Shown here one piece after another: positions 41,601-63,447 of a DNA stretch of 64,000 nucleotides. Origin of the DNA: Echinicola jeungdonensis (GTDB taxonomy: Bacteria; Bacteroidota; Bacteroidia; Cytophagales; Cyclobacteriaceae); the NCBI RefSeq assembly GCF_030409905.1, contig NZ_JAUFQT010000001.1, positions 2,254,001 to 2,318,000 on the forward strand, in the 5' to 3' direction. The first letter of the stretch is position 1; each line of letters opens with the position of its first letter. Both the position numbers and the translations under genes were made by a program. The notes beneath the pieces are model-generated. The model saw only the letters and a list, made by a program, of their open reading frames with translations. It made no database searches and was not told the origin of the DNA.

Positions 41601-41650
41601 CTCAGCAAATAGCAATTCATCAATTTTAAATAACCAGAAACCCATTTATT

Positions 41651-43237: not shown

Positions 43238-43437
43238 AGGTGTAGCTAGTTTCTGGTATCAAGTATCAAGACTAAAGACCTGGATTTATTTAAACAGAAA
43301 AGGAAGTTAGAAATGAGGTCATTTAATTGAGCTCAATACTCAAGAATAGAGATTAAATACTATATAAAAGCAGGAATGTACAGGATAAAAATACGATGTA
43401 ATCCATGCAGTTTTAAAATGAATAAAAACCCTTTAAG

Positions 43438-46913: not shown

Positions 46914-49787
46914 ATGAAAAACAGTTTCACCAATTGTAATTTTAAAAACTTATGTTGGATGCTGGTGGCATTGCTTCATCTTCCTTTTGTTGGAAGTTAT
47001 GCTCAGGAAGCCAGCACGGAAATAAAATACCTTTCTGGAAAAGGCTATCAAGATACCAAAGAATGGGAGTTTATGGTGACCGGTGGCCGCAAAAGCGGGG
47101 AATGGTCCACCATCAGCGTGCCTTCTGTTTGGGAGCAGGAAGGATTTGGCCAATACCAATATGGTATCAAATTTTATGGTAAGCCTTTCCCGGATGGAAT
47201 TGCCGATGAGGTGGGCCATTACAAATATACTTTTGAAGTACCACAAGAATGGGAAAACCGGATTGTCCGGATCATTTTTGACGGTTCCATGACCGATACC
47301 GAAGTTAAGATCAATGGTAGGTCAGCCGGTGACAAACACCAAGGCGCTTTTTACCGCTTCAAATATGACATTACTGACTTATTAAAATATGGCAAGGAAA
47401 ACTTATTGGAGGTAACCGTTAGCAAGGAATCCTCCAATGCCAGTGTCAATCTTGCTGAGAGAAGGGCAGATTACTGGAATTTTGGAGGAATATTCAGGCC
47501 TGTTTTCCTTGAAGCCTTACCTCCTAAGTTTATTGAAAGGACAGCCATCGATGCCCAGGCCAATGGGAAATTCTTAGCGGAAGTTTATTTGGGTAATGGC
47601 TATAATTCCAACCTTTCAGTTAAGGCTCAAGTGACTGATGAAGATGGTAAAAAAGTGGGGGATGAGATCAAAGCCCAAATTGAAGAAGGAGGAGATAAGG
47701 CAGTTTTGGAAGCGGATTTTGATGATGTCCAACTTTGGACTGCAGAAACCCCCAACCTGTATAATATCGAATTTTCCCTTTATGATGGGGGTGAATTGGT
47801 TCATAAGATCAAGGACCGTTTTGGATTTAGAACTATTGAAATCAAAGCCAGTGATGGTATTTACGTTAATGGACAAAGGGTTTTGATGAAAGGCGTAAAC
47901 AAACACAGTTTCTGGCCGGAATCAGGCAGAACCCTGAACAAAGAATTGAATTATGCAGACGCCAAACTGATCAAGGAGATGAACATGAATGCGGTAAGAT
48001 TGTCGCATTATCCCTCTGATCCTGAGTTTTTGGATGCCTGTGATGAGTTGGGACTTTATGTCTTGCATGAATTGGGTGGCTGGCATGGCCATTATGATGA
48101 AAACATCGGAATGGAATTGATAGAGTCCCTGGTGACCAGGGATGTGAACCACCCCAGTGTGATTTTCTGGGACAATGGTAATGAAGGTGGTTGGAATACC
48201 GAATTGGATGATGAATTTGCCAAGTGGGATCCCCAAAACCGTCCCGTATTGCACCCTCAGCAATTGTTGAACGGTGTGGAAACCATGCACTATCGTTCTT
48301 ATGGGGAAACCCAGGAATATTTCCGAGGGGATTACATATTTATGCCTACTGAATTTTTGCACGGGCTTTATGATGGGGGCCATGGTGCCGGTTTGCATGA
48401 TTATTGGGAAATGATGCGAAAGCATCCCCGAAGCGGAGGAGGATTCCTTTGGGTATTTGCTGATGAAGGAATTGTTCGAACCGATCAGGATGGTAGAATT
48501 GATAACCAGGGAAATTTTGGAGCAGATGGTATCGTAGGGCCACACCACGAAAAAGAAGGCAGTTTCTTTACGATTAAGGAAGTTTGGTCTCCAGTGATGG
48601 TGATGCATAATGATCATTTGTCTTCAGATTTTGACGGGACCTTTACCGTTGAAAACCGGTATGATTTTACCAACCTGAATGAATGTACTTTTGAATGGGA
48701 GTTGGCGGAATTTTATAGTCCTGAAGAAGGAAAATCCGGTCATAAGACCATTGAAAAAGAAGATTTCAATGGCCCTGATGTAGCCCCACATGAAGAAGGA
48801 GAAATTGATTTGGAATTGCCTTCCAATTGGAAAGAAGCGGATGCCCTTTATCTGACAGTTAAAAATCCAGAAGGAAGAGAACTCTGGACCTGGTCATACA
48901 CCTGGGAAAAAGAAAAACAATATCTTACTTCCGGAAATGGCAAAGTTTTTTTGGAAACTACGGCTAATGGCTATAAAGTGACTTCAGGAGATTTGGAAAT
49001 CGTATTTGATAGAGAAGATGGGAAAATCCAGTCCATACAGGAAAATGGAAAAGCTATTTCTTTTAAAGGAGGACCAAGGTTTGTTGCTGCCAGAAGAGGT
49101 GACAGAACTTTGGATGGCACGGTGAATCCTGACTTTGAAAAGGGAATGGACCGGATATATAAAGAAATTGAATTGGAGCGTGAGCTTCAGGAAATTGAAG
49201 CCCAGCAAGAAGGAGAAAATGTTGTAGTTAAAGCTGTATATTTTGGTCCCATGGAGGAAGTGATTTGGACCATTCAGCCCGGTGGCTTGGTTCAATTGGA
49301 CTACACTTACCAATACAATGGAGTGGTAGAATTGATGGGGGTTTCTTTTGATTATCCTGAGCATGAAGTTGAGTCCATCCGTTGGCTGGGTGAAGGACCA
49401 TATAGGGTTTGGCAGAACAGGATACATGGTACCACCCTGGACATTTATGGAAATGATTACAACGATCCAATTCCAGGAGAGTCATTCATCTATCCAGAAT
49501 TCAAAGGCTATTTCAATGACTGGCATTGGGCAGCACTTCAAACCACTGAAGGGAAAATCTATATGGCCAGCGAAAACCAGGACAATTATTTGGGCATTTT
49601 CACCCCAAGGGATGGCAGAGATGCCCTATTATATACTTTGCCAAAAACAGGAATTGCAGTATTCGACGTGATTCCAGCTGTAAGAAATAAAGTCAATGCT
49701 ACCGATTTGGTAGGACCTAGCTCCCAACCACAAAAGGTGAGTGGTTCCAAATCCGGTAGGGTTTATTTTAAATTTAAATCCAAATAG
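46914..49787 (+). CDS. GH2 beta-galactosidase/glycosidase, third copy
   Basis: A 957-residue secreted enzyme with a signal peptide ending VGSYAQEA. Jelly roll ~residues 40-210, Ig-like ~210-310, TIM barrel ~310-590 with acid/base Glu424 in WDNGNEGGW and probable nucleophile Glu480 in MPTEFLHGLYDGG, then an Ig-like domain and a C-terminal beta-galactosidase small-chain-like region (residues ~680-950, VESIRWLGEGPYRVWQNR). The acid/base context NGNEGGW differs from the two GH2 enzymes at 16-22 kb, so it probably belongs to another GH2 clade with another substrate. Followed after 2 bp by the isomerase-like gene, hence same operon. Confidence 0.87.
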   Translation: MKNSFTNCNFKNLCWMLVALLHLPFVGSYAQEASTEIKYLSGKGYQDTKEWEFMVTGGRKSGEWSTISVPSVWEQEGFGQYQYGIKFYGKPFPDGIADEVGHYKYTFEVPQEWENRIVRIIFDGSMTDTEVKINGRSAGDKHQGAFYRFKYDITDLLKYGKENLLEVTVSKESSNASVNLAERRADYWNFGGIFRPVFLEALPPKFIERTAIDAQANGKFLAEVYLGNGYNSNLSVKAQVTDEDGKKVGDEIKAQIEEGGDKAVLEADFDDVQLWTAETPNLYNIEFSLYDGGELVHKIKDRFGFRTIEIKASDGIYVNGQRVLMKGVNKHSFWPESGRTLNKELNYADAKLIKEMNMNAVRLSHYPSDPEFLDACDELGLYVLHELGGWHGHYDENIGMELIESLVTRDVNHPSVIFWDNGNEGGWNTELDDEFAKWDPQNRPVLHPQQLLNGVETMHYRSYGETQEYFRGDYIFMPTEFLHGLYDGGHGAGLHDYWEMMRKHPRSGGGFLWVFADEGIVRTDQDGRIDNQGNFGADGIVGPHHEKEGSFFTIKEVWSPVMVMHNDHLSSDFDGTFTVENRYDFTNLNECTFEWELAEFYSPEEGKSGHKTIEKEDFNGPDVAPHEEGEIDLELPSNWKEADALYLTVKNPEGRELWTWSYTWEKEKQYLTSGNGKVFLETTANGYKVTSGDLEIVFDREDGKIQSIQENGKAISFKGGPRFVAARRGDRTLDGTVNPDFEKGMDRIYKEIELERELQEIEAQQEGENVVVKAVYFGPMEEVIWTIQPGGLVQLDYTYQYNGVVELMGVSFDYPEHEVESIRWLGEGPYRVWQNRIHGTTLDIYGNDYNDPIPGESFIYPEFKGYFNDWHWAALQTTEGKIYMASENQDNYLGIFTPRDGRDALLYTLPKTGIAVFDVIPAVRNKVNATDLVGPSSQPQKVSGSKSGRVYFKFKSK

Positions 49788-51255: not shown

Positions 51256-51699
51256 ATGTTTATAAAGAAGTACTACGAAGAGTTTGAACTTGAAGAAAGC
51301 CGGACCACCTTGGGCCGGACCATTACGGAAACAGATATTGTAATGCATGCCGGTCAAACCGGTGATTATTTTCCGCACCATATGGATGAAGAATGGTGCA
51401 AAACACAACCTTTTAAAGAGCGCATTGCCCATGGAACCCTGATTTTTTCGGTAGCCGTAGGGATGACAGCCCAGGTCATTAATGAGGTGGCCATGACCTA
51501 TGGATACGAGCGTTTGCGATTTACCAAACCTGTGTTCATTGGGGACACCATCCGGGTGAAAGTTTCCATAAAAGACAAAAAAGACCATAAAAGGCCTCAG
51601 TATGGGCTGGTTACGGAGCTGGTAGAAGTCTTTAACCAGAAAGATGAACTGGTGATGCTTTGTGAACATATTTTATTGACCGAAAAAAAGGATGTTTAA
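51256..51699 (+). CDS. MaoC-family (R)-hydratase/dehydratase
   Basis: A 147-residue single hot-dog domain protein. The hydratase motif [13 protein letters not shown] (Asp37 and His42 as catalytic pair) and the following [14 protein letters not shown] match MaoC enzymes that add or remove water on CoA thioesters. It begins the 51.3-58.5 kb operon. The presence of two CoA-transferases downstream makes a CoA-bound substrate plausible; the overall logic recalls mesaconyl-CoA-type hydratase/transferase pairs, but no CoA lyase, CoA ligase or thiolase is encoded nearby. Substrate unknown. Confidence 0.85.
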
Positions 51700-51858
51700 A
51701 GCCAAAAGCCGAAAGCCTAAGGTCTAATGCGAACCAAAGTGTTGATCAGGAAAAAAATCTATGGATGAGAGGTATTCGGATTTTGGCCTTTAGCTACCAC
51801 TGGTTGGTCGGTAAGAAGAAATTTGAAAGTAAAAAGAAGAAATTAATACGTAGAAATA

Positions 51859-53022
51859 ATGGCGAAAAAGATATTAAAAGGAATGACCTGGGGGCATAGT
51901 CGAGGGATCGCCCCTTTGCAGGCTTTTGCCCAAAGATTTCAACAACTTTATCCGGATATTGAGGTGCAATGGAGACAAAGGACTTTACAGGAGTTTGCCG
52001 ATTATCCGATTGAAAAACTGACGGAAAGCTATGATCTCCTGATCATCGACCACCCTTGGGTGGGATGTGCTGCTGCCACCAATTGTGTATTGCCATTGGA
52101 TGAACATTTGCCTAAGGCTTATCTGGAAAACCAGGCAGACAATAATGTAGGGAGATCCCATCAAAGTTACCATTATGGTGGTCACCAGTGGGCTTTGGCC
52201 ATTGATGCAGCTGCTCCTGTTCCCAGTTACAGGAAAGATTTGCTCAAGGAAAATGGGGCAAAAGTTCCTGAAACATGGGCAGAGGTGATGGAACTGGCCA
52301 AAAAAGGTAAAGTGGCTGCTCCAGCCATTCCGATCGATTTGCTGATGAACTTTTATATGTTCTGTCAGGCGCATGGACAAGAGCCTTTTGTAAGTACTGA
52401 GGAGGTGATTGATAAGTCAACTGGCCTCAAAGCATTGGCCACCATGAAGGACTTTTACAGCCAATTGGATGAAAGGATGTTTGCTGCCAATCCTATTAGA
52501 GTGGCAGAAATGATGTCCATGAGCAATGATTTCTGGTATTGTCCTTTTGCCTATGGCTATTCCAATTATTGCAGGGAAGGATACAGTGACTATCTGTTGA
52601 CCTATGGAAACTTGGTCAATTTTGACGACAAAAATAAATTGAGAAGTACCATTGGAGGTACTGGTTTGGCGGTTTCCGCTTTTAGCAAACATAAGGAGGA
52701 AGCATTACTTTTTGCGGAAATGGTAGTGAGCGAAAGGCATCAGTCTACCGAATATGTACTCAATGGCGGCCAGCCAGGGCACCGCACTGCCTGGTTGGAT
52801 GAAAGAACCAATTACATCACTAATGATTATTTCAAAGACACCCTTGCTTCATTGGATGCTTCTTATATGAGACCCAGGTACAATGGTTACCTGCATTTTC
52901 AGGACCATGCGGGAAATTCCATCCAAAATTATATGAAGGGGGAAGGAAGTCCTGAAGAAGTGCTGGATGCTATTAACCAAATTTATCAGGAAAGCCTGAG
53001 AACGGTAGTAAATGAAGAGTAA
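51859..53022 (+). CDS. Solute-binding-protein-fold protein lacking signal peptide
   Basis: A 387-residue protein with the pattern of family 1 extracellular sugar-binding proteins: LQAFAQRFQQLYPDIEVQW, YDLLIIDHPWVG, WALAIDAAAPVPSYRKDLL, VPETWAEVMELAKKG and GGTGLAVSAFSKHKEEALLFAEMV. The N-terminus (MAKKILKGMTWGHSRG) has no hydrophobic segment, and an in-frame stop at 51844-51846 rules out an upstream extension, so it is cytoplasmic. No ABC permease or ATPase gene is in the window. It overlaps or abuts the first CoA-transferase gene. It may be an enzyme or ligand sensor built on the SBP fold (as MqnA, MqnD and Thi5 are) serving the CoA pathway. Function unknown. Confidence 0.8.
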   Translation: MAKKILKGMTWGHSRGIAPLQAFAQRFQQLYPDIEVQWRQRTLQEFADYPIEKLTESYDLLIIDHPWVGCAAATNCVLPLDEHLPKAYLENQADNNVGRSHQSYHYGGHQWALAIDAAAPVPSYRKDLLKENGAKVPETWAEVMELAKKGKVAAPAIPIDLLMNFYMFCQAHGQEPFVSTEEVIDKSTGLKALATMKDFYSQLDERMFAANPIRVAEMMSMSNDFWYCPFAYGYSNYCREGYSDYLLTYGNLVNFDDKNKLRSTIGGTGLAVSAFSKHKEEALLFAEMVVSERHQSTEYVLNGGQPGHRTAWLDERTNYITNDYFKDTLASLDASYMRPRYNGYLHFQDHAGNSIQNYMKGEGSPEEVLDAINQIYQESLRTVVNEE

Positions 53023-54193
53023 TACGGAAAAAAATATGGGAAAAAGGCCATTGGACGGGGTGTTGGTATTGGAGTTTTGCCAATACCTTTCCGGCCCATC
53101 TGCTGGTTTAAGGTTGGCAGATTTGGGGGCAAGGGTGATCAAAATCGAAAACCCAGGCAAGGGGGATTTGTGCCGTATTTTGCCCATCAAAAACCAATGG
53201 GTAGGAGATGATTCCCTGCTTTTCCATACCATCAATAGAAACAAGGAAAGCTTTACAGCTAACCTGAAATCTCCAGAGGAACTGGCAGAAATCAAAAACC
53301 TGGTAGGCAAAGCAGATGTGTTGATCCATAATTTCAGGCCCGGAGTCATGGACAAATTAGGCTTGGGATATGAAACTGTGAAAGAAATTAACCCCAAGCT
53401 GATTTTTGCGGAAATCAGCGGTTATGGCAGCAAAGGACCTTGGGCCAAAAAGCCCGGTCAGGACCTCTTGCTCCAAGCTATGAGCGGATTGATGTATTCC
53501 AGCGGTAACCAGAAAGATGCCCCAACTCCATTTGGATTGGCTATTGGGGATATGCTCTGTGGTGCCCAGATGGTGCAGGGGATTTTGGCGGCATTGGTCA
53601 GTAGAAACAAGACCGGCAAAGGGGCCAAGTTGGAATTGAGCCTTTTGGAATCCCTATTGGATTTCCAGTTTGAGTTGTTGACCACCTACTTTGCCAGCGG
53701 CAAAAGGCCTTTGCGATCCGCTGTCAATAATGCCCATCCTTTGCTGGGAGCACCTTACGGGATTTATGCCACCTCTGATAGTCATTTGGCCATTGCCATG
53801 ATTCCACTTGCCGATTTAAATGCAGCTATTGGCGGTGAAAAGTTAGAAGACTTCGATCAGTCACAGGTCTTTAGCCATCGGGATGAAATCAAATCCATCC
53901 TGGCAGAACACTTCAAGCAAAAAAGTACCGATCACTGGTTGGGAAAACTGCGGGAAAATGGCCTTTGGGCCATGGATGTCAAAAATTGGAAGGAACTGAA
54001 GCAGGAACGGGGGTATCAGGAAATGCAACTGGAACAGGAAGTGAGGCTTCCTGATGGTAAGTCGATCTTGACCAATCGATGTCCTATTAGAATTGATGGA
54101 AAGCGGATGCTCAGTGAAAAGCCTGCTCCAGAGTTGGGGGCGGATACTGAAAAGATCAAAGCCGCATTTAACCTATTTGAAATACAGTCATGA
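53012..54193 (+). CDS. CaiB/BaiF class III CoA-transferase A
   Basis: A 393-residue cytoplasmic enzyme, or 385 if the ATG at 53036 is used; from 53012 it overlaps the SBP-like gene by 11 bp. Family marks: SGPSAGLRLADLGARVIKIE, HTINRNKESFTANLK, LIHNFRPGVMDKLGLGY, ISGYGSKGPW, and the catalytic Asp180 in GLAIGDMLCG (the equivalent of the aspartyl-CoA residue of formyl-CoA transferase). Moves CoA from one carboxylic acid to another without an ATP cost. It is clearly paralogous to the next gene and translationally coupled to it (ATGA overlap), so the two may form a heteromer or act on successive acids. Confidence 0.9.
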   Translation: MKSNTEKNMGKRPLDGVLVLEFCQYLSGPSAGLRLADLGARVIKIENPGKGDLCRILPIKNQWVGDDSLLFHTINRNKESFTANLKSPEELAEIKNLVGKADVLIHNFRPGVMDKLGLGYETVKEINPKLIFAEISGYGSKGPWAKKPGQDLLLQAMSGLMYSSGNQKDAPTPFGLAIGDMLCGAQMVQGILAALVSRNKTGKGAKLELSLLESLLDFQFELLTTYFASGKRPLRSAVNNAHPLLGAPYGIYATSDSHLAIAMIPLADLNAAIGGEKLEDFDQSQVFSHRDEIKSILAEHFKQKSTDHWLGKLRENGLWAMDVKNWKELKQERGYQEMQLEQEVRLPDGKSILTNRCPIRIDGKRMLSEKPAPELGADTEKIKAAFNLFEIQS

Positions 54194-55341
54194 GTTTACT
54201 GGAAGGAATATTAGTCGTAGACTTTTCCCAGTTTTTGTCCGGGCCATCAGGGAGCTTGCGCTTAGCTGATATGGGTGCCCGGGTGATCAAAGTGGAAAAG
54301 CCCGAAACCGGGGACATCTGCCGCCAGCTATATGTGTCAGAAGTGGAGGTGGCTGGGGAATCCACCATTTTTCATACTATCAACCGGAACAAGGAAAGTA
54401 TCACGGCTGATCTCAAAAATGAGAAAGATAAAGTAAGGATCCTCGATTTGTTGAAAAAAGCGGATGTGGTGATGCACAATTTCCGTCCTGGAGTAATGGA
54501 TCGCCTTGGTTTGGCATTTGAAGATGTCAAGGCCATCAAACCTGATGTCATTTATGCAGAAATTAGTGGCTATGGATCGGAGGGGCCCTGGAAGGATTTG
54601 CCCGGGCAGGATTTGCTATTACAGTCCTTGACAGGATTGCCCTTTTTGAATGGTGAAGAGGATAAATTACCGACCCCTATGGGGATCTCGGTGGTGGATA
54701 TATTAGCAGGTACCCAATTGGCTCAGGGAATATTGGCCGCTCTATATCAAAAGGATCAAACAGGACAAGGCGCTTTGGTGCAAGTAAGCATGTTGGAATC
54801 AGCCATGGATTTTCAATTTGAAGTGTTTACCACTTTCCTCAATGATGGGAATGAACTTCCCCAAAGAAGCAAAGCCAATCATGCCCATTCTTATGTGGCC
54901 GCCCCTTATGGCGTTTATGAAACTACTGACGGCCATTTGGCTTTGGCCATGGGGAATATCCAGATATTAAAGGACCTTTTGGGTTGTCCCGAACTGGCGC
55001 CATTTGAAGATCCAAAAACCTGGTTTGACCAAAGGGATGAAATAAAAGCCATTTTGGCCAGCCACCTTCAAAGCCAAAGTACCCGGCACTGGCTGGATAT
55101 TTTAGAGCCTGCGGACATTTGGTGTGCCCGGGTCTTGGATATTGAGGCCCTGATGGAAGAAGAAGGCTATCAGGTGTTGGAGATGGAAATGAAAGTAAGA
55201 ACCATCCAGGGTCATGAGGTGAAAACCACCCGATGCCCAATTAGGGTCAATGGAGAAATTTTGAAATCGGAAAAGGGAGCTCCCTTTTTAGGAGAACATA
55301 ATGACGCAATTGCCAGGGAGTTTGGACTCAATGACCACTGA
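54190..55341 (+). CDS. CaiB/BaiF class III CoA-transferase B
   Basis: A 383-residue paralogue of the preceding enzyme, starting inside its stop codon (ATGA). Same motif order: SGPSGSLRLADMGARVIKVE, HTINRNKESITADLK, VMHNFRPGVMDRLGLAF, ISGYGSEGPW, with catalytic Asp170 in GISVVDILAG kept. The two copies look roughly half identical by eye, so the duplication is old and both active sites are maintained, which argues for separate or subunit-specific roles rather than redundancy. The next gene begins 1 bp after its stop. Confidence 0.9.
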   Translation: MSLLEGILVVDFSQFLSGPSGSLRLADMGARVIKVEKPETGDICRQLYVSEVEVAGESTIFHTINRNKESITADLKNEKDKVRILDLLKKADVVMHNFRPGVMDRLGLAFEDVKAIKPDVIYAEISGYGSEGPWKDLPGQDLLLQSLTGLPFLNGEEDKLPTPMGISVVDILAGTQLAQGILAALYQKDQTGQGALVQVSMLESAMDFQFEVFTTFLNDGNELPQRSKANHAHSYVAAPYGVYETTDGHLALAMGNIQILKDLLGCPELAPFEDPKTWFDQRDEIKAILASHLQSQSTRHWLDILEPADIWCARVLDIEALMEEEGYQVLEMEMKVRTIQGHEVKTTRCPIRVNGEILKSEKGAPFLGEHNDAIAREFGLNDH

Positions 55342-55342
55342 A

Positions 55343-56200
55343 ATGAATATCGTAGATTCACATATCCATATTTGGGATTTTGAAAAGGCCAGGTACAGCT
55401 GGCTGAAAAATGACACTTCCATTTTGAGCAGGACTTATTCCCTGGAGGAATTGGAAGAGGAACGCAAAGAAGCAGGCATCAATGCTGGGGTCTTGGTGCA
55501 GGCGGCCAACAACTTTGACGATACCGACTGGATGCTGGAAGTGGCCAAAAAAAATGATTGGATCAAGGGAGTAGTAGGTTGGGTGCCGCTTCAAGATCCA
55601 GAATATACGGCCAAAGTTTTGGAGGGCAAGTATTTGTCCAATCCTTATTTTAAAGGGGTCCGCCATTTGATCCACGATGAACCAGATTCCCAGTGGTTAT
55701 TGCAGGAAGAAGTTTTGGAAAGCCTCCAGATACTGGCGGACAAAAACATTCCCTATGATGTGGTGGGCATTTTGCCCGAACATATTGAAACGGCTTTGAC
55801 CGTGGCTGAAAAAGTGCCCGATCTGAAAATGGTTTTTGACCATCTCAATCAGCCCCCCATCCAGGAAGCCGCTCATTTTGGCAGATGGGGGGAGTTGATG
55901 GAACAAGCTGCCCAACACCCCAATTTTTATATGAAAATTTCCGGCATGGGTACCACCTCCGGAAAACCGGATAACTGGGGTCGTTATGACATTTTTCCCT
56001 ATGTGGAGTTTGCCTTGGATACCTATGGTGTTGGTCGATGCTTTTGTGGTGGTGATTGGCCAGTGTCCTTATTGGCCGGGAGCTACACCTATTCCTGGAA
56101 AAATTATAAAGATGTTTTGCAATTATTGTTGCACCCCAAAGAACAAGAAAAAGTATTGAGTGAAAATGCTGCAGCATTTTACAACCTGAACCTAAAATAA
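55343..56200 (+). CDS. COG3618 amidohydrolase, probable sugar lactonase
   Basis: A 285-residue TIM-barrel hydrolase. I start it at the ATG at 55343 (MNIVDSHIHIWDFEK), one base after the previous stop; the frame is open to 55301, but that part overlaps the CoA-transferase. DSHIHIWD provides two metal His (7 and 9), followed by ARYSWLK, the signature of the L-fuconolactonase/L-rhamnonolactonase group, and later VFDHLNQPP and CFCGGDWPVS. It probably hydrolyses an aldonolactone to the sugar acid. This fits a neighbour that would make the lactone (Gfo/Idh/MocA at 57413) and a RhaT-like transporter that would import the sugar. Confidence 0.83.
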   Translation: MNIVDSHIHIWDFEKARYSWLKNDTSILSRTYSLEELEEERKEAGINAGVLVQAANNFDDTDWMLEVAKKNDWIKGVVGWVPLQDPEYTAKVLEGKYLSNPYFKGVRHLIHDEPDSQWLLQEEVLESLQILADKNIPYDVVGILPEHIETALTVAEKVPDLKMVFDHLNQPPIQEAAHFGRWGELMEQAAQHPNFYMKISGMGTTSGKPDNWGRYDIFPYVEFALDTYGVGRCFCGGDWPVSLLAGSYTYSWKNYKDVLQLLLHPKEQEKVLSENAAAFYNLNLK

Positions 56201-56207
56201 CCAAAAA

Positions 56208-57239
56208 ATGAGTGTAATTGGAGGCGTAATGTTACATGCGGTAGGGGCTTCCTTTGCCGCCCTTTGCTATACCCCACAGAAAAAAGTATCCCAATGGTCC
56301 TGGCAAACTTATTGGCTGGCACAAGCTTTTGTTTGCTGGTTTCTTTTACCCATCATAGTGGCCTGGATCACCATCCCTGAACTAATGACGGTTTTGGAAA
56401 AAGCGCCATCTGATGCCATGTGGAAAGCATTTGGTCTGGGAATGGCCTATGGCGTGGGAGGTACAGCTTTTGGCATTGCCATCCGGTACATGGGGTTCTC
56501 CCTGACCTATGCCATTTCCATTGGCATCAGCTGTGTGGTGGGAACCTTATTGCCTCCATTTGTAAGGGGAGAATTGATGACCGTTTTGCAGCAGAATGGT
56601 GCCGAATGGATCATCACAGGAATGATTTTTGGAGTAGTAGGTATTGCCCTTTGTGGGTTGGCCGGCCGATACAAAGAAATAGATCTGGCCAAATCCCTGA
56701 AAACCCAGGATTCCAGCTTTTCTATAGGTAAAGGTTTGCCTCTGTGTTTATTGGCGGGGGTATTGTCTGCTCTTTATGGTTTTTCCATCGACCAAGGCCA
56801 ACCTATTGCTGAAGTTGCAGTAGAATATGGCGCAGGGGATTACCAAAGCAATGTGATTTACATCTTTTCAAATACCGGAGCATTTTTGGTGACTTTGATT
56901 TATTGTCTCTCCCTGCACCGCAAACAAGGTACTTTCAAAGAGTTTGTGGGAAAAGGAAAATCCCCATTGACCAGAAATTACATTTTTGCCATCATCACCG
57001 GTTTGTTGTGGTATTCCCAATTCTTCTTTTATGGCTTAGGCCATGTGAAGATGGGAGATTACAAATTTACAAGTTGGGCAGTGCATATGATCATGCTGGT
57101 GCTGTTCAGTACGGTAGCCGGTTTGGCTCTAAGGGAATGGGTGCATGCCAAAGGAAAAACCATTTGGACGCTGGCCCTGGCATTGGCCGTGCTCGTGGCT
57201 GCTGTATTGGCCCTGACCATTGGCAATTCCATGGCTTGA
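56208..57239 (+). CDS. RhaT-family sugar/proton symporter
   Basis: A 343-residue inner-membrane protein with about 10 helices and no signal peptide. AYGVGGTAFGIAIRYMGFSL followed by TYAISIGISCVVGTLLPPF is highly typical of L-rhamnose:proton symporter RhaT, and the conserved C-terminal GLLWYSQFFFYGLGHVKMG supports it. It imports L-rhamnose or a related 6-deoxy or branched sugar. Eight bases after the lactonase gene, so in the same operon. That makes the sugar it brings in the probable entry substrate of the enzyme set around it. Note that no rhamnose isomerase or rhamnulokinase gene accompanies it, so a different, oxidative fate is likely. Confidence 0.87.
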   Translation: MSVIGGVMLHAVGASFAALCYTPQKKVSQWSWQTYWLAQAFVCWFLLPIIVAWITIPELMTVLEKAPSDAMWKAFGLGMAYGVGGTAFGIAIRYMGFSLTYAISIGISCVVGTLLPPFVRGELMTVLQQNGAEWIITGMIFGVVGIALCGLAGRYKEIDLAKSLKTQDSSFSIGKGLPLCLLAGVLSALYGFSIDQGQPIAEVAVEYGAGDYQSNVIYIFSNTGAFLVTLIYCLSLHRKQGTFKEFVGKGKSPLTRNYIFAIITGLLWYSQFFFYGLGHVKMGDYKFTSWAVHMIMLVLFSTVAGLALREWVHAKGKTIWTLALALAVLVAAVLALTIGNSMA

Positions 57240-57246
57240 CAGTTTT

Positions 57247-57405
57247 TCGCCTAAACGCTAAGAACGCAAATTTGGGATGGGAGAAGTTATATTTTCGAAT
57301 GAGGAAATGGGTCATATTTCCCAAAACACCAAAATTCAAACGGATAGGATACCTTTAGGGTATTAGAATAAAAATCTTTGTGGGCCCTGCGCCTCCGCGA
57401 GAAAA
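57247..57405. repeat. Inverted pair of GCG-rich dispersed repeats
   Basis: CGCCTAAACGCTAAGAACGC (57248-57267) and, in the opposite sense, CTTTGTGGGCCCTGCGCCTC with CGCGAGAA (57376-57403) bracket the gap between the RhaT-like and oxidoreductase genes. The second half ends only ~10 bp before the true start codon at 57413 and would be read as coding if the earlier GTG at 57380 were taken as the start. Confidence 0.6.
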
Positions 57406-57412
57406 ATTCAAT

Positions 57413-58468
57413 ATGAACAAAAAAACTAAAATACAGGTCATCGGAGCGGGAGGGATTGTAAAAGATGCCCACCTGCCCGCTTATCAATTGGCTGGTTTTG
57501 AGGTAGCAGGAATTTTTGATTTGGATGTTTCCAAAGGGAAGGGTTTGGCAGATCAATTCGGGATTCCCCAGGTATTTGAAAACTTGGAAGATTTGGTAAA
57601 ACATGCTGATGAATCTACCATTTTTGATGTGGCTGTCCCTGGTAATGCCATGTTGAAAGTATTGGAAAAACTTCCCAATGGGGCCAGGGTATTGATCCAA
57701 AAACCCATGGGTGAAAACCTGGAAATGGCCAAAGACATTTTAACCTTGTGCAAAAAAAAGAAGTTGATTGCCGGAATCAATTTCCAGCTTCGTTATGCAC
57801 CCTTTATCCAAAAAGCCCGGGAAATCATCCAATCCGGAAAAATCGGGGATTTATGTGATATTGAAATTAATATCAATGTTTTTACCCCCTGGCACCTTTG
57901 GGAATTTTTATTCACCTCTCCAAGAGTAGAAATATTGTACCACAGCATCCATTATGTGGATTTGATCCGGTCTTTTTTGGGGGATCCAAAATGCGTTTAC
58001 GCCAAAACCACCAAACATCCCAAAATGGCCCAACTGGCCTCGGTGAGGAGCAATATCATTTTGGATTATGGAGAAATGGTCCGGGCCAATATCATAACCA
58101 ATCATGCCCATGATTTTGGTTTGAAAAACCAGCATTCCTATATCAAACTGGAAGGCACCAAAGGAGCCATCAAAATAGAACTGGGGCTGCTCAAAAATTA
58201 CCCGGAAGGGACGGAAGACCAATTCGAATGGATCCAATTGGAAGAGGGGAAGACTCCTAAGTGGAAAGAAGAAAAGATAAATGGTTCTTGGTTCCCACAT
58301 GCATTTATGGGTTCCATGGGAGAAATGATCAAGAGCTTGGAAGGTCCAGGTTATCAACCTGATAATAGTGTGGAAGACTGCATCCATACTATGGCCTGTG
58401 TGGAGGCGGCGCACCGATCTTCTGAAGAGGGTGGTGTGAAGTTGGGAGAGTTGCTGAGTGGAAATTGA
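57413..58468 (+). CDS. Gfo/Idh/MocA family oxidoreductase 2
   Basis: A 351-residue cytoplasmic dehydrogenase. The frame is open from a GTG at 57380, but that extra 11 residues are translation of an intergenic repeat; the Rossmann fold begins properly at MNKKTKIQVIGAGGIVKDAH. The catalytic lysine lies in VLIQKPMGENLEM, and the second domain has LYHSIHYVDLIRSFLGDP with the expected His. Members of this family oxidise aldoses to lactones, including D-apiose dehydrogenase of the apionate pathways. Here it could make the lactone for the COG3618 enzyme. Last gene before the hairpin at 58700-58737. Confidence 0.85.
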   Translation: MNKKTKIQVIGAGGIVKDAHLPAYQLAGFEVAGIFDLDVSKGKGLADQFGIPQVFENLEDLVKHADESTIFDVAVPGNAMLKVLEKLPNGARVLIQKPMGENLEMAKDILTLCKKKKLIAGINFQLRYAPFIQKAREIIQSGKIGDLCDIEININVFTPWHLWEFLFTSPRVEILYHSIHYVDLIRSFLGDPKCVYAKTTKHPKMAQLASVRSNIILDYGEMVRANIITNHAHDFGLKNQHSYIKLEGTKGAIKIELGLLKNYPEGTEDQFEWIQLEEGKTPKWKEEKINGSWFPHAFMGSMGEMIKSLEGPGYQPDNSVEDCIHTMACVEAAHRSSEEGGVKLGELLSGN

Positions 58469-58699
58469 AGTTAAATCTTTTTAGAAGTTCACCTTTGACA
58501 GTCAACTGAGAACTCGTCCTTATACATCGTACCTCGTACTTTTCTCCTAGGTAAAAATGGGAGTTTCTCCAAAGCGTCTATTATTTAAAGGAATAAGGAT
58601 AAAAAAATGATTGTTCCTAATTGGAGCAGGTAAGTTCAGGATGCTGTTATAAAGCAGCATAGCTACTTTTGCTCACATAGGGTTTTATTAGGTTTTTTT
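58469..58699. promoter_or_regulatory. Leader/promoter region before the RuBisCO-like gene
   Basis: This is the first part of a 318-bp gap. It holds a short hairpin ATGCTG/CAGCAT (58641-58660) upstream of the strong terminator at 58700-58737. It may include the promoter of the second half of the cluster, or a leader in which the first hairpin influences the terminator. I recognise no known riboswitch. Confidence 0.4.
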
Positions 58700-58737
58700 A
58701 AGTAGGACGGGAGCTTTACTCCTGTCTTACTTTTTTT
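58700..58737 (+). terminator. Terminator or attenuator 50 bp upstream of the RuBisCO-like gene
   Basis: AAGTAGGACGGGAG (58700-58713) pairs with CTCCTGTCTTACTT (58719-58732), 14 bp with two G-U pairs and a 5-base loop, continuing into seven T. It is placed 232 bp after the upstream stop and only 50 bp before the next start, a position more typical of an attenuator in a leader than of an operon-end terminator. Confidence 0.8.
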
Positions 58738-58786
58738 GATTTTCCTAATCCCTTTCCAACCCCACCACCCATTTTGACATTATATC

Positions 58787-60037
58787 ATGGAAAGAATTTC
58801 AGCCACATATTATATAGAAACCCCCTATGAAGTTGAAGCTGCCGCCCAAGTTTTGGCTGGCGAGCAATCCTCGGGGACATTTGTAGCCGTTCCAGGTGAA
58901 ACGGCTGAATTAAAACAACGCTTTGCCGCACAGGTAGAATCCATTGAGCCTTTAGAAGAGGTCAGCGAACCGGCCATCCCAGGAGCTGTTTCGCCTACTG
59001 GCAAATACAGAAGGGCAAGGATCAAGGTTTCCTGGTCTATTGAAAATTTTGGTTATAACCTTCCCACGATGATTTCCACCCTTCAGGGAAATTTATATGA
59101 AATCACCCAATTTACCGGCCTGAAGTTGATGGATCTGGAAGTTCCTGATTCCTTTGCCCGGCATTTTGCAGGGCCCAAGTTTGGCATAAAGGGTTGTAGG
59201 GATTTGACGGGTGTTCCAGAAGGAAGGCCTTTGATTGGAACCATTATCAAACCCAGTATCGGTATGAGTCCTGAAGAAACGGCTGCATTGGTGAAGGAAT
59301 TGGCAGAAGCAGGGATTGATTTTATTAAGGATGATGAACTGATGGCTTCTTCCGCTAATTCGCCATTTGACAAAAGGGTGGATGCCATCATGAAGGTGAT
59401 CAATGAGCATGCGGACAAAACCGGGAAAAAGGTCATGTATGCCTTCAATATTTCCGATGAAATCGATGCTATGCACAAACATTATGATAAGGTGGTACAA
59501 AGTGGTGGCACCTGTGCCATGATGAGCATCAACAGTGTAGGGCTGGCGGGGGTGAAATCCATTTGTGACCGGGGTGAGCTGGCAATTCACGCCCACAGAA
59601 ATGGCTGGGGAATGCTCAACAGGCATCCACTTTTAGGAATTGATTTTAGAGCATACCAAAAATTATGGCGATTGGCCGGGGTAGATCAACTCCATGTCAA
59701 TGGCATTCAAAATAAATTCTGGGAATCTGATGATTCGGTAGTCAACTCCATTGAAGGCTGTTTGACACCCCTGCTTGGTGGCTATCAGGTAATGCCAGTA
59801 GTTTCCTCCGGACAATGGGGAGGGCAAGCTCCCGAAACTTTCAGAAGGACCAAAACCACTGACTTGCTTTACATGGCAGGTGGAGGGATAATGGCTCATC
59901 CTGCTGGACCCGCTGGAGGGGTAAAAGCTTTGAAGCAAGCCTGGGAAGGTGCTGTCGATGGCCTTTCCGTGGAGGAAGTGGCGGAACAATATCCGGAGTT
60001 TGGTCTATCAGTTGAGAAATTTGGAAAGAAAAAATAA
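58787..60037 (+). CDS. RuBisCO-like protein (form IV, acid-sugar type)
   Basis: A 416-residue cytoplasmic protein with the RuBisCO large-subunit fold: N-terminal alpha/beta domain to about residue 140, then the TIM barrel. Key positions persist: Lys155 in GTIIKPSIG (RuBisCO Lys175), the carbamylation site Lys181 with Asp183 and Glu184 in FIKDDE, His270 in HAHRNGWGM, a loop-6 Lys310 in NGIQNKF and GGGIMAHP for phosphate binding. RuBisCO's second lysine in KPK is Ser here, so it is a RuBisCO-like protein, not a CO2-fixing enzyme. Followed in a TAATG overlap by a DUF1537 kinase; that pairing is known from D-apiose catabolism (3-oxo-isoapionate 4-phosphate decarboxylase or transcarboxylase/hydrolase, OiaX/OiaT). 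Confidence 0.88.
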   Translation: MERISATYYIETPYEVEAAAQVLAGEQSSGTFVAVPGETAELKQRFAAQVESIEPLEEVSEPAIPGAVSPTGKYRRARIKVSWSIENFGYNLPTMISTLQGNLYEITQFTGLKLMDLEVPDSFARHFAGPKFGIKGCRDLTGVPEGRPLIGTIIKPSIGMSPEETAALVKELAEAGIDFIKDDELMASSANSPFDKRVDAIMKVINEHADKTGKKVMYAFNISDEIDAMHKHYDKVVQSGGTCAMMSINSVGLAGVKSICDRGELAIHAHRNGWGMLNRHPLLGIDFRAYQKLWRLAGVDQLHVNGIQNKFWESDDSVVNSIEGCLTPLLGGYQVMPVVSSGQWGGQAPETFRRTKTTDLLYMAGGGIMAHPAGPAGGVKALKQAWEGAVDGLSVEEVAEQYPEFGLSVEKFGKKK

Positions 60038-61419
60038 TGGCAAAACAAGCACCACTTTTATTGGCCTATTACGGGGATGATTTTACAGGCTCTTCGGATG
60101 CACTGGACTTCCTAAGCCGTGCCGGAGTGAAAACGGTGCTATTTATCGCGCCTCCCACACCTGAACAATTGGCCAGGTATGAAGGGATTGAGGCCATTGG
60201 GATTGCTGGGATGACCCGTTCCATGAACCCGGAGGACATGGAAAAAGAATTAAAAGTGGCTTTTTCGGCACTAAAAGACTCTGGCGCTGCACAAGTACAT
60301 TATAAAGTTTGTTCCACCTTTGATTCCTCTCCCAAGATCGGAAGCATTGGAAAAGCCATAGATGTTGGCGCGAAAATTTTTAACCACAATTATATTACCC
60401 TTTTGGTAGCTGCACCCCAACTGGGACGTTATTGTGCCTTTGGAAACCTTTTTGCCCGGATGGGTATAGGCAGCCAGGGAGAAATCCATAGACTGGATCG
60501 TCATCCATCCATGAGCAAACACCCCACCACTCCTGTTGATGAAAGTGACCTTAGGTTACATTTGGGCAAGCAAACCGACAAGAAAGTTGGATTGGTAGAT
60601 ATTCTGGAAGTGGAGGGAGAGGAAGCAAGCTTGGAAAAAGCCCTTCTTAGGGAACTGGAAGATCAAGCGGAAGTGGTCCTTTTTGATGCCCTTTATCCTG
60701 ATCAAATGCCAAAAATCGGCCGTTTAATTGACCAGGCTGGGCAAGAGAAAACCCATTTTTCGGTGGGATCTTCAGGTGTAGAAATGGCCTTGGGAGCTTA
60801 TTGGAAATACAAAGGGAAAATTGATCAGGAAATCAATTGGTCCCATCCTGGTAGGGCTACACCTATGTTGGTAGTTTCAGGAAGCGGGAGTCCGGTGACT
60901 TCAGGACAGATTTCCTGGGCCTTGGACCACGGATTTGAAGGTGTAGCCTTGGATCCGGAAAAAGTGATAGCTGAGAAAAATGGGTTGGATGGATATGTGG
61001 AGGAAGTAAAAGCAAAAATGGCTGCAGGGAAAAGTGTGGTCATCCATACTGCCTTGGGGAGTGATGATCCCAGGATGGCGCTTACCAAAAAGCTGTTGAC
61101 TCAAAATGGAATAGCTTCAGAGGAAGTTTCCAGTAAAACTGCTGATTTATTTGGGAAAGCCCTGGGAAGTATAGCCCGCCAGGTGGCTCAGGAAATTAGG
61201 TATCAAAGATTATTGATCGCTGGAGGAGATACTTCCAGCAAGGTGGCCAGAGTTTTGGGCATTGAAGCAGTGGAGATGATTGCTCCTCTTGTTCCCGGTG
61301 CCCCATTATGTAAAGCTTTTGCCCCGGGATCTCCTTTGGATGGAGTTGAAGTGAACTTTAAAGGTGGCCAGGTGGGAGCGGAAGATTACTTTGGCAGTGT
61401 AGAAAAAGGTGAAAATTAA
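60037..61419 (+). CDS. DUF1537 four-carbon acid-sugar kinase family protein
   Basis: A 460-residue cytoplasmic kinase. The N-terminal substrate domain has YYGDDFTGSSDALDFLSRAG, the family signature, and YKVCSTFDSSPKIGSIG; the C-terminal nucleotide domain has VVSGSGSPVTSGQI and LLIAGGDTSSKVAR near residue 395. DUF1537 kinases phosphorylate threonate, erythronate, 3-oxo-tetronate or 3-oxo-isoapionate. It overlaps the stop of the RuBisCO-like gene by one base, so the two are made together and probably act in series: the kinase makes the 4-phosphate, the RuBisCO-like protein splits it. OiaK-like activity is a good hypothesis; no PdxA2, OtnI or OtnC partner is present, which argues against the tetronate pathways. 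Confidence 0.88.
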   Translation: MAKQAPLLLAYYGDDFTGSSDALDFLSRAGVKTVLFIAPPTPEQLARYEGIEAIGIAGMTRSMNPEDMEKELKVAFSALKDSGAAQVHYKVCSTFDSSPKIGSIGKAIDVGAKIFNHNYITLLVAAPQLGRYCAFGNLFARMGIGSQGEIHRLDRHPSMSKHPTTPVDESDLRLHLGKQTDKKVGLVDILEVEGEEASLEKALLRELEDQAEVVLFDALYPDQMPKIGRLIDQAGQEKTHFSVGSSGVEMALGAYWKYKGKIDQEINWSHPGRATPMLVVSGSGSPVTSGQISWALDHGFEGVALDPEKVIAEKNGLDGYVEEVKAKMAAGKSVVIHTALGSDDPRMALTKKLLTQNGIASEEVSSKTADLFGKALGSIARQVAQEIRYQRLLIAGGDTSSKVARVLGIEAVEMIAPLVPGAPLCKAFAPGSPLDGVEVNFKGGQVGAEDYFGSVEKGEN

Positions 61420-61442
61420 GTGTAATAGAAAAACAGATCATT

Positions 61443-62105
61443 ATGCAAAAAGATAAAACATTAGGATTGATCCATACTTCGGCAACATTGGTGCCTATAT
61501 TCCAAAAGCTTTGTGAGGAGCATTTGCCAGGAGTAAAAGTGTTCAATATTGTAGACGACAGCTTAATAAAAGATGTGATCAACAAAGGTAAGTTGACCCA
61601 GCAAACTGCCAGAAGAGTGGTTGATTATGTAGGGTCGGCAGAAACCGCAGGTGCTGACCAGATCATGGTTACCTGTTCCTCCATTGGAGCGGCGGTAGAA
61701 GCTTCAGAAGCATTGACTCAGGTGCCTGTAATAAGGGTAGACCAACCAATGGCAGATTTGGCCATTAAAACAGGTAAAAAAATTGGAGTAGTTGCCACTT
61801 TACCTACTACCTTGGAACCCACTTCAGACTTGGTAGAAAGAAGAGCGAAAGTTTTAGGAAAAAAAATCGAACTGACTGCTAAGCTATGTGAAGGGGCTTT
61901 CGAAGCCTTGATGGGAGGAGATCCGGAAAAGCATGACCAGATGGTTGCAGAAGCGTTGAAAGCACTATCTAAAGAAGTGGATGTGATCTTATTGGCCCAA
62001 GCCTCTATGGCCAGGGTGGTGGAAACCTTAGATGAGGAAGATAAAAAAGTGCCAATCGTGGCCAGTCCACCAGAAGCAGTAAAATATTTAGCTTCCATCC
62101 AATAA
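61443..62105 (+). CDS. Asp/Glu racemase-fold protein with one catalytic Cys
   Basis: A 220-residue cytoplasmic protein, 23 bp after the kinase. The fold is recognised from LGLIHTSATLVPIF, IMVTCSSIGAA (Cys78), DQPMADLAIKTGKKIGVVATL and VILLAQASMARVVE. True racemases use two cysteines; here the first (Cys78) is present but the second position is in the AQAS segment, with no Cys. It is therefore more likely a decarboxylase, isomerase or hydrolase-like member of the superfamily (as maleate isomerase or arylmalonate decarboxylase use altered cysteine sets). In context it may act on the sugar-acid intermediate or product of the RuBisCO-like protein. Specific function unknown. Confidence 0.8.
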   Translation: MQKDKTLGLIHTSATLVPIFQKLCEEHLPGVKVFNIVDDSLIKDVINKGKLTQQTARRVVDYVGSAETAGADQIMVTCSSIGAAVEASEALTQVPVIRVDQPMADLAIKTGKKIGVVATLPTTLEPTSDLVERRAKVLGKKIELTAKLCEGAFEALMGGDPEKHDQMVAEALKALSKEVDVILLAQASMARVVETLDEEDKKVPIVASPPEAVKYLASIQ

Positions 62106-62115
62106 ACTATCCCTT

Positions 62116-63447
62116 ATGCAGCTTGTAAGAAAGTCTCTTTTGTATATTTCCGGACTGCTATTGGTCGTAATGCTCTTTGCCATTATGGGAGGTTTTACCT
62201 CCATTTGGCAAGTTACTGCTGTGGGGTTTTGTGTGGCTTTTTCTTTGGGAATGGGATCCTTTGAAAAATGGAAAGGCTACCAATACACGGCTTGGATCAT
62301 GACTGCAGTAGTTGCCGGGATGATCTATCCGGAGGCTTTCTTGCAATGGGGTGATTTTGACCTTCGCAACAAATGGGTGATCCTGTTTGTGGTGCAAGGG
62401 GTAATGTTTGGCATGGGTATCCAGATGAGCTTAAGGGACTTTTCCAATTTGGCCACCACAGGAAAAGGGGTCCTGGTTGGATTGCTCAGCCAATTTTCCA
62501 TTATGCCCTTGATTGGTTTTATGCTCACCCAAATATTTGATTTTGATCCTGAAATTGCTGCTGGGATCATTCTGATGGGAGCATGCAGCAGTGGATTGGC
62601 TTCCAATGTGATGGTTTACCTTGCCAGGGCCAATCTGGTCTTGTCCGTAACGGTGACGGCCATGGCGACCATGCTGGCCCCATTAATGACTCCGTTTTGG
62701 ATGAAAACACTGGCGGGCACCCTGATTGATATTGAATTTATCAGTATGATGATGAGTATCATCAAAATTGTTTTGGTACCCATTGGAGCCGCCTTGTTGC
62801 ATGACTTTTTGAAACATGCACCTACCCGGTATAAATCCAAAATATATGGAGTAGCGGCCTTTGTCGCTGTTTATTTAGCAGCACTTCCCCTGGGGCTTTG
62901 GGAATATTTCTCCAATGCCTTTACCGCTCCAGCCCTTCAGTCGCTTGAGATTTTCACTTTCTTTATGGGGGCAATAGTTTTTGGGGTGTTGTACCATGTG
63001 GCAACTCGATATATTAGGAGGTTGGATCAATTGATGCCTTATATTTCCATGTTCGGTATTGTTTACTTCACCACGGTAACTACTGCGGCTGGAAGGGACA
63101 ATTTACTTCAAGTAGGAGTTTTACTTTTTATGGCAAGCGTAATTCACAATGGCTTGGGGTATTTCTTTGGCTATTGGCTTAGCCGCTTGTTAGGATTGGA
63201 TGTCAACTCTGCCCGTTCTATGGCCTTGGAAGTGGGGTTGCAAAATGGAGGAATGGCCTCCGGATTGGCCGGTTCCATGGGGAAATTGGGAACCGTTGGT
63301 TTGGCACCAGCAGTATTTAGCCCCTGGATGAATATTTCTGGTTCCATTTTGGCCAATTATTGGCGCAAAAAATCTTTAAAGGAAGAAGCAGAAGAGGAAG
63401 AACAAGAGGCAAAGGAAAAAATCAAAGAGCCCATTTCAGCAGAATAG
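62116..63447 (+). CDS. Bile acid:sodium symporter (BASS) superfamily transporter
   Basis: A 443-residue membrane protein with about 11 hydrophobic helices, two of them N-terminal to the usual BASS core. MFGMGIQMSLRDF, GACSSGLASNVMVYLARAN and GLQNGGMASGLAG are the core motifs of the family (sodium sites and crossover helices). The last ~30 residues are a charged Lys/Glu tail (EEAEEEEQEAKEKIKE). It lies 10 bp after the racemase-fold gene and probably imports, with sodium, the organic or sugar acid consumed by the RuBisCO-like/kinase pair; export of a product is the alternative. It ends the cluster. Confidence 0.87.
   Translation: MQLVRKSLLYISGLLLVVMLFAIMGGFTSIWQVTAVGFCVAFSLGMGSFEKWKGYQYTAWIMTAVVAGMIYPEAFLQWGDFDLRNKWVILFVVQGVMFGMGIQMSLRDFSNLATTGKGVLVGLLSQFSIMPLIGFMLTQIFDFDPEIAAGIILMGACSSGLASNVMVYLARANLVLSVTVTAMATMLAPLMTPFWMKTLAGTLIDIEFISMMMSIIKIVLVPIGAALLHDFLKHAPTRYKSKIYGVAAFVAVYLAALPLGLWEYFSNAFTAPALQSLEIFTFFMGAIVFGVLYHVATRYIRRLDQLMPYISMFGIVYFTTVTTAAGRDNLLQVGVLLFMASVIHNGLGYFFGYWLSRLLGLDVNSARSMALEVGLQNGGMASGLAGSMGKLGTVGLAPAVFSPWMNISGSILANYWRKKSLKEEAEEEEQEAKEKIKEPISAE

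Follow-up and report, generated by a model that had tools for sequence, protein, structure and literature searches.

Eleven open reading frames (ORFs), all on the + strand, occupy positions 51256 to 63447 of the 64,000-nucleotide stretch of the Echinicola jeungdonensis genome analysed here (the window). An initial annotation had placed them in named protein families and read them as a single acid-sugar pathway acting on apiose or a similar pectic sugar. The gene inventory was confirmed: all eleven proteins score above the Pfam cut-off for the family named, and several of the genes overlap or touch. The interpretation is partly supported. The region is best explained as part of a rhamnogalacturonan-II (RG-II) utilization island with two modules for rare RG-II monosaccharides. 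For the second of these, aceric acid is a more probable sugar than apiose; the coenzyme A (CoA) genes belong to the other RG-II module. The features of the stretch are listed below with their Pfam scores unless another source is named.

51256..51699, +, MaoC-type hydratase, 147 amino acids (aa), MaoC 94 bits; module A
51859..53022, +, solute-binding-protein (SBP)-fold protein without signal peptide, 387 aa, SBP_bac_1 59 bits; module A
53012..54193, +, type III (CaiB) CoA-transferase 1 (Cai1), 393 aa, CoA_transf_3 (PF02515) 325.6 bits; module A
54190..55341, +, type III (CaiB) CoA-transferase 2, 383 aa, CoA_transf_3 (PF02515) 337.5 bits; module A
55301..56200, +, COG3618-type amidohydrolase, candidate sugar lactonase, Amidohydro_2 147 bits; module A
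56208..57239, +, RhaT-type 6-deoxyhexose symporter, RhaT Pfam 177 bits, NCBIfam 300 bits against a cut-off of 468; module A
57380..58468, +, Gfo/Idh/MocA oxidoreductase GfoB, GFO_IDH_MocA 53 bits; module A
58700..58732, +, terminator-like hairpin between the modules, stem of 14 pairs with a T run after it, supported by a consensus match only
58787..60037, +, RuBisCO-like protein (RLP), 416 aa, RuBisCO_large 218 bits; module B
60037..61419, +, DUF1537 acid-sugar kinase, 460 aa, SBD_N/NBD_C 196/116 bits; module B
61443..62105, +, Asp/Glu-racemase-fold protein, 220 aa, Asp_Glu_race 89 bits; module B
62116..63447, +, BASS-type sodium/organic anion symporter, 443 aa, predicted acid-sugar importer, SBF 111 bits; module B

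The end of the GfoB gene (58468) and the start of the RLP gene (58787) are parted by a gap of 318 bp (58469-58786). Among 22 terminator-like hairpins detected in 50600-64000, none is longer than the one in this gap; shuffled sequences gave 17.5 ± 3.9 such sites, and the hairpin is distinguished by its length only. Because of this gap and its hairpin, the eleven genes are probably not one transcription unit, and they probably make up two modules, A (51256-58468) and B (58787-63447). A Bacteroidota promoter consensus was matched once in the window against 4.3 matches expected by chance, and no claim is made from it.

Module B is a conserved cassette. A species-collection scan for the RLP returned at least 576 confirmed relatives, from which the best 80 loci, drawn from Bacteroidota, Balneolota and Verrucomicrobiota, were kept for the locus counts given out of 80 or 76. 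The RLP ORF was recovered in 76 of the 80 loci and the DUF1537, racemase-fold and BASS genes in 73 each, and the order RLP-DUF1537-racemase-BASS is uninterrupted in 65 of the 76. A complete cassette was also observed near pectinesterase and GH28 genes on plasmid 1 of Rufibacter tibetensis (L153, NZ_CP012644.1); the cassette may move, since this plasmid is typed as mobilizable.

The closest NCBIfam models for the RLP and the kinase of the window are OiaX (521.2 bits) and OiaK (435.5 bits), each with a cut-off of 700. In a maximum-likelihood tree, 76 RLPs including that of the window fall on one side of a branch (100/93) and six outside sequences, Rhizobium OiaX among them, on the other; the outside branches are long and their mutual order is unsure. 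The RuBisCO catalytic residues are kept, including the carbamate lysine and the loop-6 lysine. Residues K155, K181, D183, E184, H270, H303 and K310 are invariant in all 76 aligned RLPs, the window's included, and match type III RuBisCO 2CWX. We take K181 to be the carbamate position, K310 to lie in loop 6, and the acid/base lysine to be kept as well.

The symporter has PanS as its best NCBIfam model (203 bits, cut-off 400). The racemase fold assigned in the initial annotation is borne out by the Pfam match; the expected catalytic pair is not. Asp/Glu racemases use cysteines in both halves of the active site. Here Cys78 and Gln186 are invariant in all 74 aligned sequences, and Gln186 sits where the second catalytic cysteine is expected, a position assigned from the motif rather than from an alignment with a two-cysteine enzyme. 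The protein is therefore put forward as a candidate aldose-ketose isomerase, because one catalytic thiol fits a one-base proton shift better than a two-base racemization.

Module B is linked to an aceric acid hydrolase (acericase). A recurring ORF of some 675 aa precedes the RLP gene; its representative from locus L026 reached 1145 bits with the NCBIfam model for aceric acid hydrolase (cut-off 950). Acericase-type proteins of glycoside hydrolase (GH) family 127 are found in 36 of the 80 loci, those of L011 and L017 being partial, and lie directly upstream of the RLP in 24 of 76. All 36 are 45-64% identical to the acericase of the window's own genome and 30-35% to its GH127 paralogue. The other neighbours recorded among the 80 loci are GH106 (16), DUF5703 (15), GH2 (14), GH130-like (14), GH78-like (14), GH141 (13), SASA (12) and GH138 (10).

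A genome-level search for acericase covered 50 of the 80 genomes; most of these were named isolates or belonged to loci in which no acericase was visible. An acericase-type match of at least 877 bits was obtained in all 50, and 44 of these exceed the cut-off. Of the 44 loci without a visible acericase, 32 were searched in this way and all 32 genomes carry one elsewhere. A credible GH138 (776 bits or more) is present in 42 of the same 50 genomes. The eight genomes lacking it are not independent, since three are Dyadobacter, and every one of them has an acericase-type match.

Co-occurrence was evaluated in a sample of 395 genomes of the window's phylum. RLP orthologues were defined by an identity of 72% or more, which kept 8 genomes; 117 of the 125 matching genomes were dropped (about 24-36% identity, probably other RuBisCO-superfamily proteins). 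Acericase over cut-off occurs in 20 genomes and GH138 over cut-off in 18, all within those 20. All 8 RLP genomes are among the 20, and 7 of the 8 also have GH138. The hypergeometric probability of the overlap between RLP and acericase is 9e-12, or 2e-10 when the window's own genome is removed, neither value being corrected for kinship. In two of the eight genomes (G286 and G080) only 35-50 bp separate the RLP and acericase matches; the distance is 3.3 kb in a third genome, 27-55 kb in four others and 1.18 Mb in that of the window.

From these data, module B is predicted to be a catabolic pathway for L-aceric acid, with a probability of about 0.6. The computed part of this reading consists of the gene content, its conservation, the linkage to RG-II enzymes, the kept RuBisCO residues and the lack of an ApnO-like match described below; the substrate and the activities are predictions. 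Aceric acid is 3-C-carboxy-5-deoxy-L-xylose. The BASS symporter would import it, and the one-cysteine racemase-fold protein would isomerize the aldose to the 2-ketose HOCH2-CO-C(OH)(COOH)-CH(OH)-CH3, a tertiary beta-keto acid. The DUF1537 kinase would then phosphorylate the CH2OH group adjoining the ketone, and the RLP would strip the branch carboxyl as CO2 to leave a 5-deoxypentulose-1-phosphate. A class II aldolase encoded elsewhere in the genome may cut this product to dihydroxyacetone phosphate and acetaldehyde; two class II aldolase-family (PF00596) proteins are present in the genome. The compound 3-oxo-isoapionate is HOCH2-CO-C(OH)(COOH)-CH2OH, so that the predicted 2-ketose equals 3-oxo-isoapionate plus one methyl group and shares the core of the OiaK/OiaX substrate. 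A review describes RLPs that decarboxylate, or transcarboxylate and hydrolyse, 3-oxo-isoapionate-4-phosphate (PMC6302742).

Several observations weigh against this assignment. Six of the 50 genomes (L067, L068, L074, L078, L079 from Verrucomicrobiota, and L081) fall under the acericase cut-off. The acericase is 1.18 Mb away in the window's genome, and 44 of the 80 loci have none within the fetched stretch. The loci were chosen by their RLP, and kinship among them inflates the counts. The co-occurrence at genome level mainly marks an RG-II degrader and is not decisive, because the GH138 pattern is nearly the same. Release of aceric acid does not require the RLP, since 12 of the 20 acericase genomes have no RLP orthologue. 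The racemase-fold step is a guess, and we know of no aldose-ketose isomerase activity in PF01177. Failing the OiaX cut-off does not by itself exclude a role in apiose catabolism, because the Shinella and Haloterrigena RLPs beside ApnO-like genes (471.6 and 515.6 bits) also fail it. The OiaK cut-off does not discriminate, because the kinase beside Rhizobium OiaX itself scores 480.1 bits against 700. In addition, the GH127 protein of an alphaproteobacterial locus on a Croceibacterium plasmid (L157, NZ_CP156083.1, 7175-11528) scored 87 bits on the aceric acid hydrolase model, although it stands beside an RLP of 53% identity. This locus, which is suggestive at most, groups GH127, RLP and kinase genes and has no racemase or BASS gene adjacent to them. 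A neighbouring protein resembles the N-terminal portion of the glucuronidase/arabinofuranosidase model.

The substrate of module B could instead be another RG-II acid sugar or sugar acid (Dha, Kdo, or a keto acid from chain A or B), the acericase linkage then being a mere reflection of shared RG-II loci. We regard this as rather unlikely. It draws on the nearly equal genome-level association of the RLP with acericase and with GH138, and on the presence of GH106, GH141, GH2, SASA esterase and DUF5703 proteins among the RLP neighbours. Acericase is by far the commonest of these neighbours and often lies directly upstream, and RLP genomes without a credible GH138 exist, whereas none without an acericase-type match was found among the 50. 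Dha and Kdo, judged by their structures, offer no tertiary carbinol-carboxylate for decarboxylation of the RuBisCO type. L-Aceric acid is thus favoured by adjacency, by the eight genomes without a credible GH138 and by the chemistry. For D-apiose, module B together with GfoB and the lactonase would form the isoapionate route (dehydrogenase, lactonase, oxidoisomerase, kinase and RLP decarboxylase), a reading that is unlikely. RG-II contains apiose, and the isoapionate branch of D-apiose catabolism, with the kinase OiaK and the RuBisCO-like decarboxylase OiaX, was reportedly described by Carter et al. in 2018, a study to which PMC6302742 refers. The resemblance of the RLP/DUF1537 pair to this branch, pointed out in the initial annotation, is real. 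A DUF1537 kinase adjoins an RLP in both, OiaX and OiaK are the closest models, the window RLP is 51% identical to Rhizobium OiaX, and the predicted substrate of module B is likewise a tertiary alpha-hydroxy-beta-keto acid. A Gfo/Idh/MocA gene and a lactonase-type gene also lie upstream.

On the OiaX model (cut-off 700), Rhizobium OiaX scored 786.7 bits and two module-B-type RLPs 509 and 521 bits; that the Shinella and Haloterrigena RLPs (472 and 516 bits) also stay under the cut-off is in favour of apiose. The Rhizobium TAL182 OiaX cluster encodes a TIM-type isomerase, a DerI protein over cut-off, a phosphogluconate-dehydrogenase-like protein and an ABC importer. We take the phosphogluconate-dehydrogenase-like protein to be ApnO, the oxidoisomerase that makes 3-oxo-isoapionate. 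No NCBIfam model matched this query at 1e-60. ApnO-like genes were sought in 29 RLP-locus genomes and the window's own genome, and none was found in these 30, against three of three OiaX-type records (Rhizobium, Shinella and Haloterrigena) used as the positive control; on this basis apiose was judged unlikely as the substrate of module B. No erythrulose-phosphate isomerase (TIM-type or DerI) and no ABC importer is encoded among the eleven genes, and the isomerase search was confined to these. Module B has instead a racemase-fold protein and a BASS transporter, the acericase linkage, and an RLP clade apart from OiaX and the five other outside RLPs. The lactonase and GfoB had been proposed as partners of the RLP; among the 80 loci, a close lactonase homologue was found in Anditalea L003 only and a distant one (32%) in L064, and GfoB homologues in 10. 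A haloarchaeal OiaX-like RLP-kinase pair was observed with an ApnO-like gene and a TRAP transporter on a Haloterrigena plasmid (L152, NZ_CP149788.1).

That all eleven genes form a single CoA-dependent pathway for one sugar is very unlikely. The genes are contiguous and co-directional, and the full set recurs in identical order in Anditalea L003. SBP orthologues, defined by an identity of 46% or more, were found in 19 of the 395 genomes, including all 8 RLP genomes; 9 of the 28 matching genomes were dropped (best E 6.6e-6, 23-32% identity). The 51.3-58.5 and 58.8-63.4 kb halves therefore do co-occur, in 10 of the 80 RLP loci by homologues of SBP, CaiB, GfoB or MaoC; the pattern that the initial annotation had named as refuting its reading was not observed. 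In the other 70 loci none of these four is present within the fetched stretch, 15 of the 80 stretches ending early at contig ends. An RLP orthologue is lacking in 11 of the 19 SBP genomes, and the SBP and RLP matches are about 80-101 kb apart in G021, G202 and G343. The single pathway was set aside on account of the SBP genomes without an RLP orthologue and of the hairpin that splits the halves.

If the L-aceric acid assignment of module B is true, it adds a substrate to those of the RuBisCO superfamily and gives a function open to testing to many proteins annotated as RuBisCO large chain; what becomes of aceric acid could then be tested with a small set of purified proteins. RG-II is the most complex plant pectin, and aceric acid is one of its rarest sugars. 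Within the library searched, there was no paper joining aceric acid with RuBisCO-like proteins and none joining RuBisCO-like proteins, polysaccharide utilization and pectin; among the papers pairing aceric acid with a decarboxylase, none was on this subject by title.

The pectic-sugar setting that had been proposed is supported by the remainder of the window and by the rest of the genome. The following features precede the eleven genes.

13461..16235, +, GH138 alpha-D-galacturonidase, RG-II breakdown marker, 1514.8 bits (cut-off 1300)
16457..20002, +, GH2 protein, model "beta-d-glucuronidase/beta-L-arabinofuranosidase", 1581.5 bits (cut-off 1800), covering positions 363-1400 of 1400 in the model
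32505..37037, +, SusC/SusD-type pair, named by reading only
39614..46721, +, GfoA, PhyH, SSS symporter, GH78-like protein (relative of solved 3CIH) and enolase-superfamily protein, from family searches
46914..49787, +, GH2 enzyme of the same island, from a family search

The GH138 protein is presumably tied to RG-II chain A. The GH138 homologue of locus L075 scored 1432 bits on the GH138 model and 1005 bits against solved BPa0997 (6HZF). The GH2 protein at 16457-20002 misses the first quarter of its model and is taken to be BT0996-like. The interval 1559-11282 carries a PcRGLX-like protein, a tagaturonate epimerase-family protein, a GDSL esterase, an arabinofuranosidase-family protein and a GH43 protein. 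Homologues of the 39614-46721 genes are found beside the RLP cassette elsewhere: SSS in 15, GH78-like in 14 and GfoA in 13 of the 80 loci, and the enolase-superfamily protein in L003, L030, L038 and L060. The aceric acid hydrolase of the window's genome (G000:C1:1130801-1132762) scored 1114.8 bits against the cut-off of 950, so that both RG-II markers, GH138 and aceric acid hydrolase, are over cut-off in this genome. Near it, at 1.13-1.15 Mb of C1, several proteins seen at the RLP loci have homologues: GH106, GH2, SASA esterase, DUF5703 and GH130-like.

The RG-II loci of Bacteroides thetaiotaomicron presumably include a GH127 acericase, GH138 and GH141. The present genome resembles them in GH138, the BT0996-like GH2 protein and the aceric acid hydrolase. 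It differs from them in adding modules for the released rare monosaccharides and in spreading its RG-II system over at least two loci. GH139 is among the B. thetaiotaomicron RG-II enzymes and frees 2-O-methyl-fucose from chain B (PMC12282258).

Three ORFs of the island were also noted individually. At mid-island, the ORF 29313-31286 encodes 657 aa with Castor/Pollux ion-channel and RCK domains. The PhyH-family oxygenase (40767-41534), located between GfoA and the SSS symporter, has a weaker match to the halogenase HalD and a homologue in Belliella L060. A 294-aa protein (49790-50674) has no Pfam or NCBIfam match and has homologues in Anditalea L003 and Belliella L060.

Module A is probably a second, RG-II-linked sugar module, for a 6-deoxyhexose such as 2-O-methyl-L-fucose, the latter being a tentative first choice of substrate. 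Among the 19 SBP genomes, 15 have an acericase over cut-off; in three more the GH127 reaches 698-845 bits, and in G214 no GH127 exceeds 483 bits. Of the 15, 13 carry the SBP and the acericase on a single contig at a distance of 10-55 kb; the distance is about 109 kb in G269 and 1.17 Mb in the window's genome. The genome of locus L124 (G214) has module A genes without an acericase over cut-off, which shows that the module is not bound to aceric acid.

Module A typically consists of SBP-CaiB-CaiB together with GfoB and MaoC. In one version a lactonase and RhaT are added (window, L003 and L124-L126), and in another a FucP symporter and a further SBP-fold protein that also lacks a signal peptide (Flavobacterium, Pedobacter and Mucilaginibacter loci); the FucP of L010 scored 373 bits, over its family cut-off of 280. 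Locus L123 combines the lactonase with FucP and L133 the second SBP with RhaT. L131 and L137 have neither GfoB nor MaoC, and L135 has the SBP alone. In the Flavobacterium loci, representatives of the divergent neighbours were tested: an L-fucose dehydrogenase scored 357 bits (cut-off 300), and fuconolactonase-like and 2,4-didehydro-3-deoxy-L-rhamnonate hydrolase-like proteins stay below their cut-offs. Homologues of these fucose-pathway neighbours are found in 8-9 loci. They point to a 6-deoxyhexose as the substrate, and a methylated sugar is favoured because plain fucose has its own genes next door.

The SBP-fold protein had been called cytosolic, and this agrees with its sequence, which by eye opens directly in the SBP core. 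This start, with no signal peptide before it, is shared by the window's protein and 19 of 21 relatives; for the other two (L126 and L130) the ORF start is set further upstream. No ABC permease gene was found among the 39614-63447 ORFs scanned with Pfam. In being apparently unexported and having no ABC permease genes nearby, the protein departs from an ABC solute-binding protein. Both CaiB proteins exceed the PF02515 cut-off, and Cai1 Asp151, which we take as the candidate catalytic Asp, is aligned with the Asp of YfdE. The amidohydrolase is of COG3618 type, as had been annotated; the name lactonase is less secure, the best NCBIfam model, L-fuconolactonase, giving 151 bits against a cut-off of 400. 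For MaoC the best NCBIfam model is the hydratase part of PaaZ (103 bits, cut-off 563), and Asp37 and His42, presumably the catalytic dyad, are kept.

Module A would import the 6-deoxyhexose, with 2-O-methyl-L-fucose as the favourite, oxidize it, open the lactone, transfer CoA and, through MaoC, hydrate or dehydrate the product on the way to the 2-keto-3-deoxy-acid route. It resembles the oxidative (diketo-hydrolase) L-fucose/L-rhamnose pathway in its fuconolactonase-like lactonase, in its 6-deoxyhexose transporter and in the fucose-pathway homologues adjoining the Flavobacterium loci. It differs by the two CaiB transferases, the MaoC hydratase and the cytosolic SBP-fold proteins, which the classical pathway is not known to use. 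The PaaZ hydratase is an enol-ether-type hydrolase acting on a beta-alkoxy group; the analogy is not a clean fit for a 2-O-methyl sugar, because the 2-O-methyl group is alpha. It seems improbable, taken as a whole, that both modules are new in the following sense. Module B would be an L-aceric acid route with a RuBisCO-family decarboxylase acting on a keto phosphate. Module A would depend on CoA and either remove or circumvent the methyl ether of 2-O-methyl-L-fucose, with the cytosolic SBP fold as a soluble CaiB partner and MaoC as an enol-ether hydrolase like PaaZ.

Three variants of module A were observed, their genes being named wholly or partly by eye. In L131, L133 and L137, a crotonase-like and an aldehyde-dehydrogenase-like gene lie near SBP-CaiB-CaiB, as read from their N-termini. 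In L135 (G286), the SBP orthologue lacks CaiB genes and is located beside apparent rhamnose isomerase, aldolase and kinase genes. In L124 (G214; 334-11351), the module A genes continue into a second MaoC-like gene, an SDR-like gene and, by eye, an FAH-like gene.

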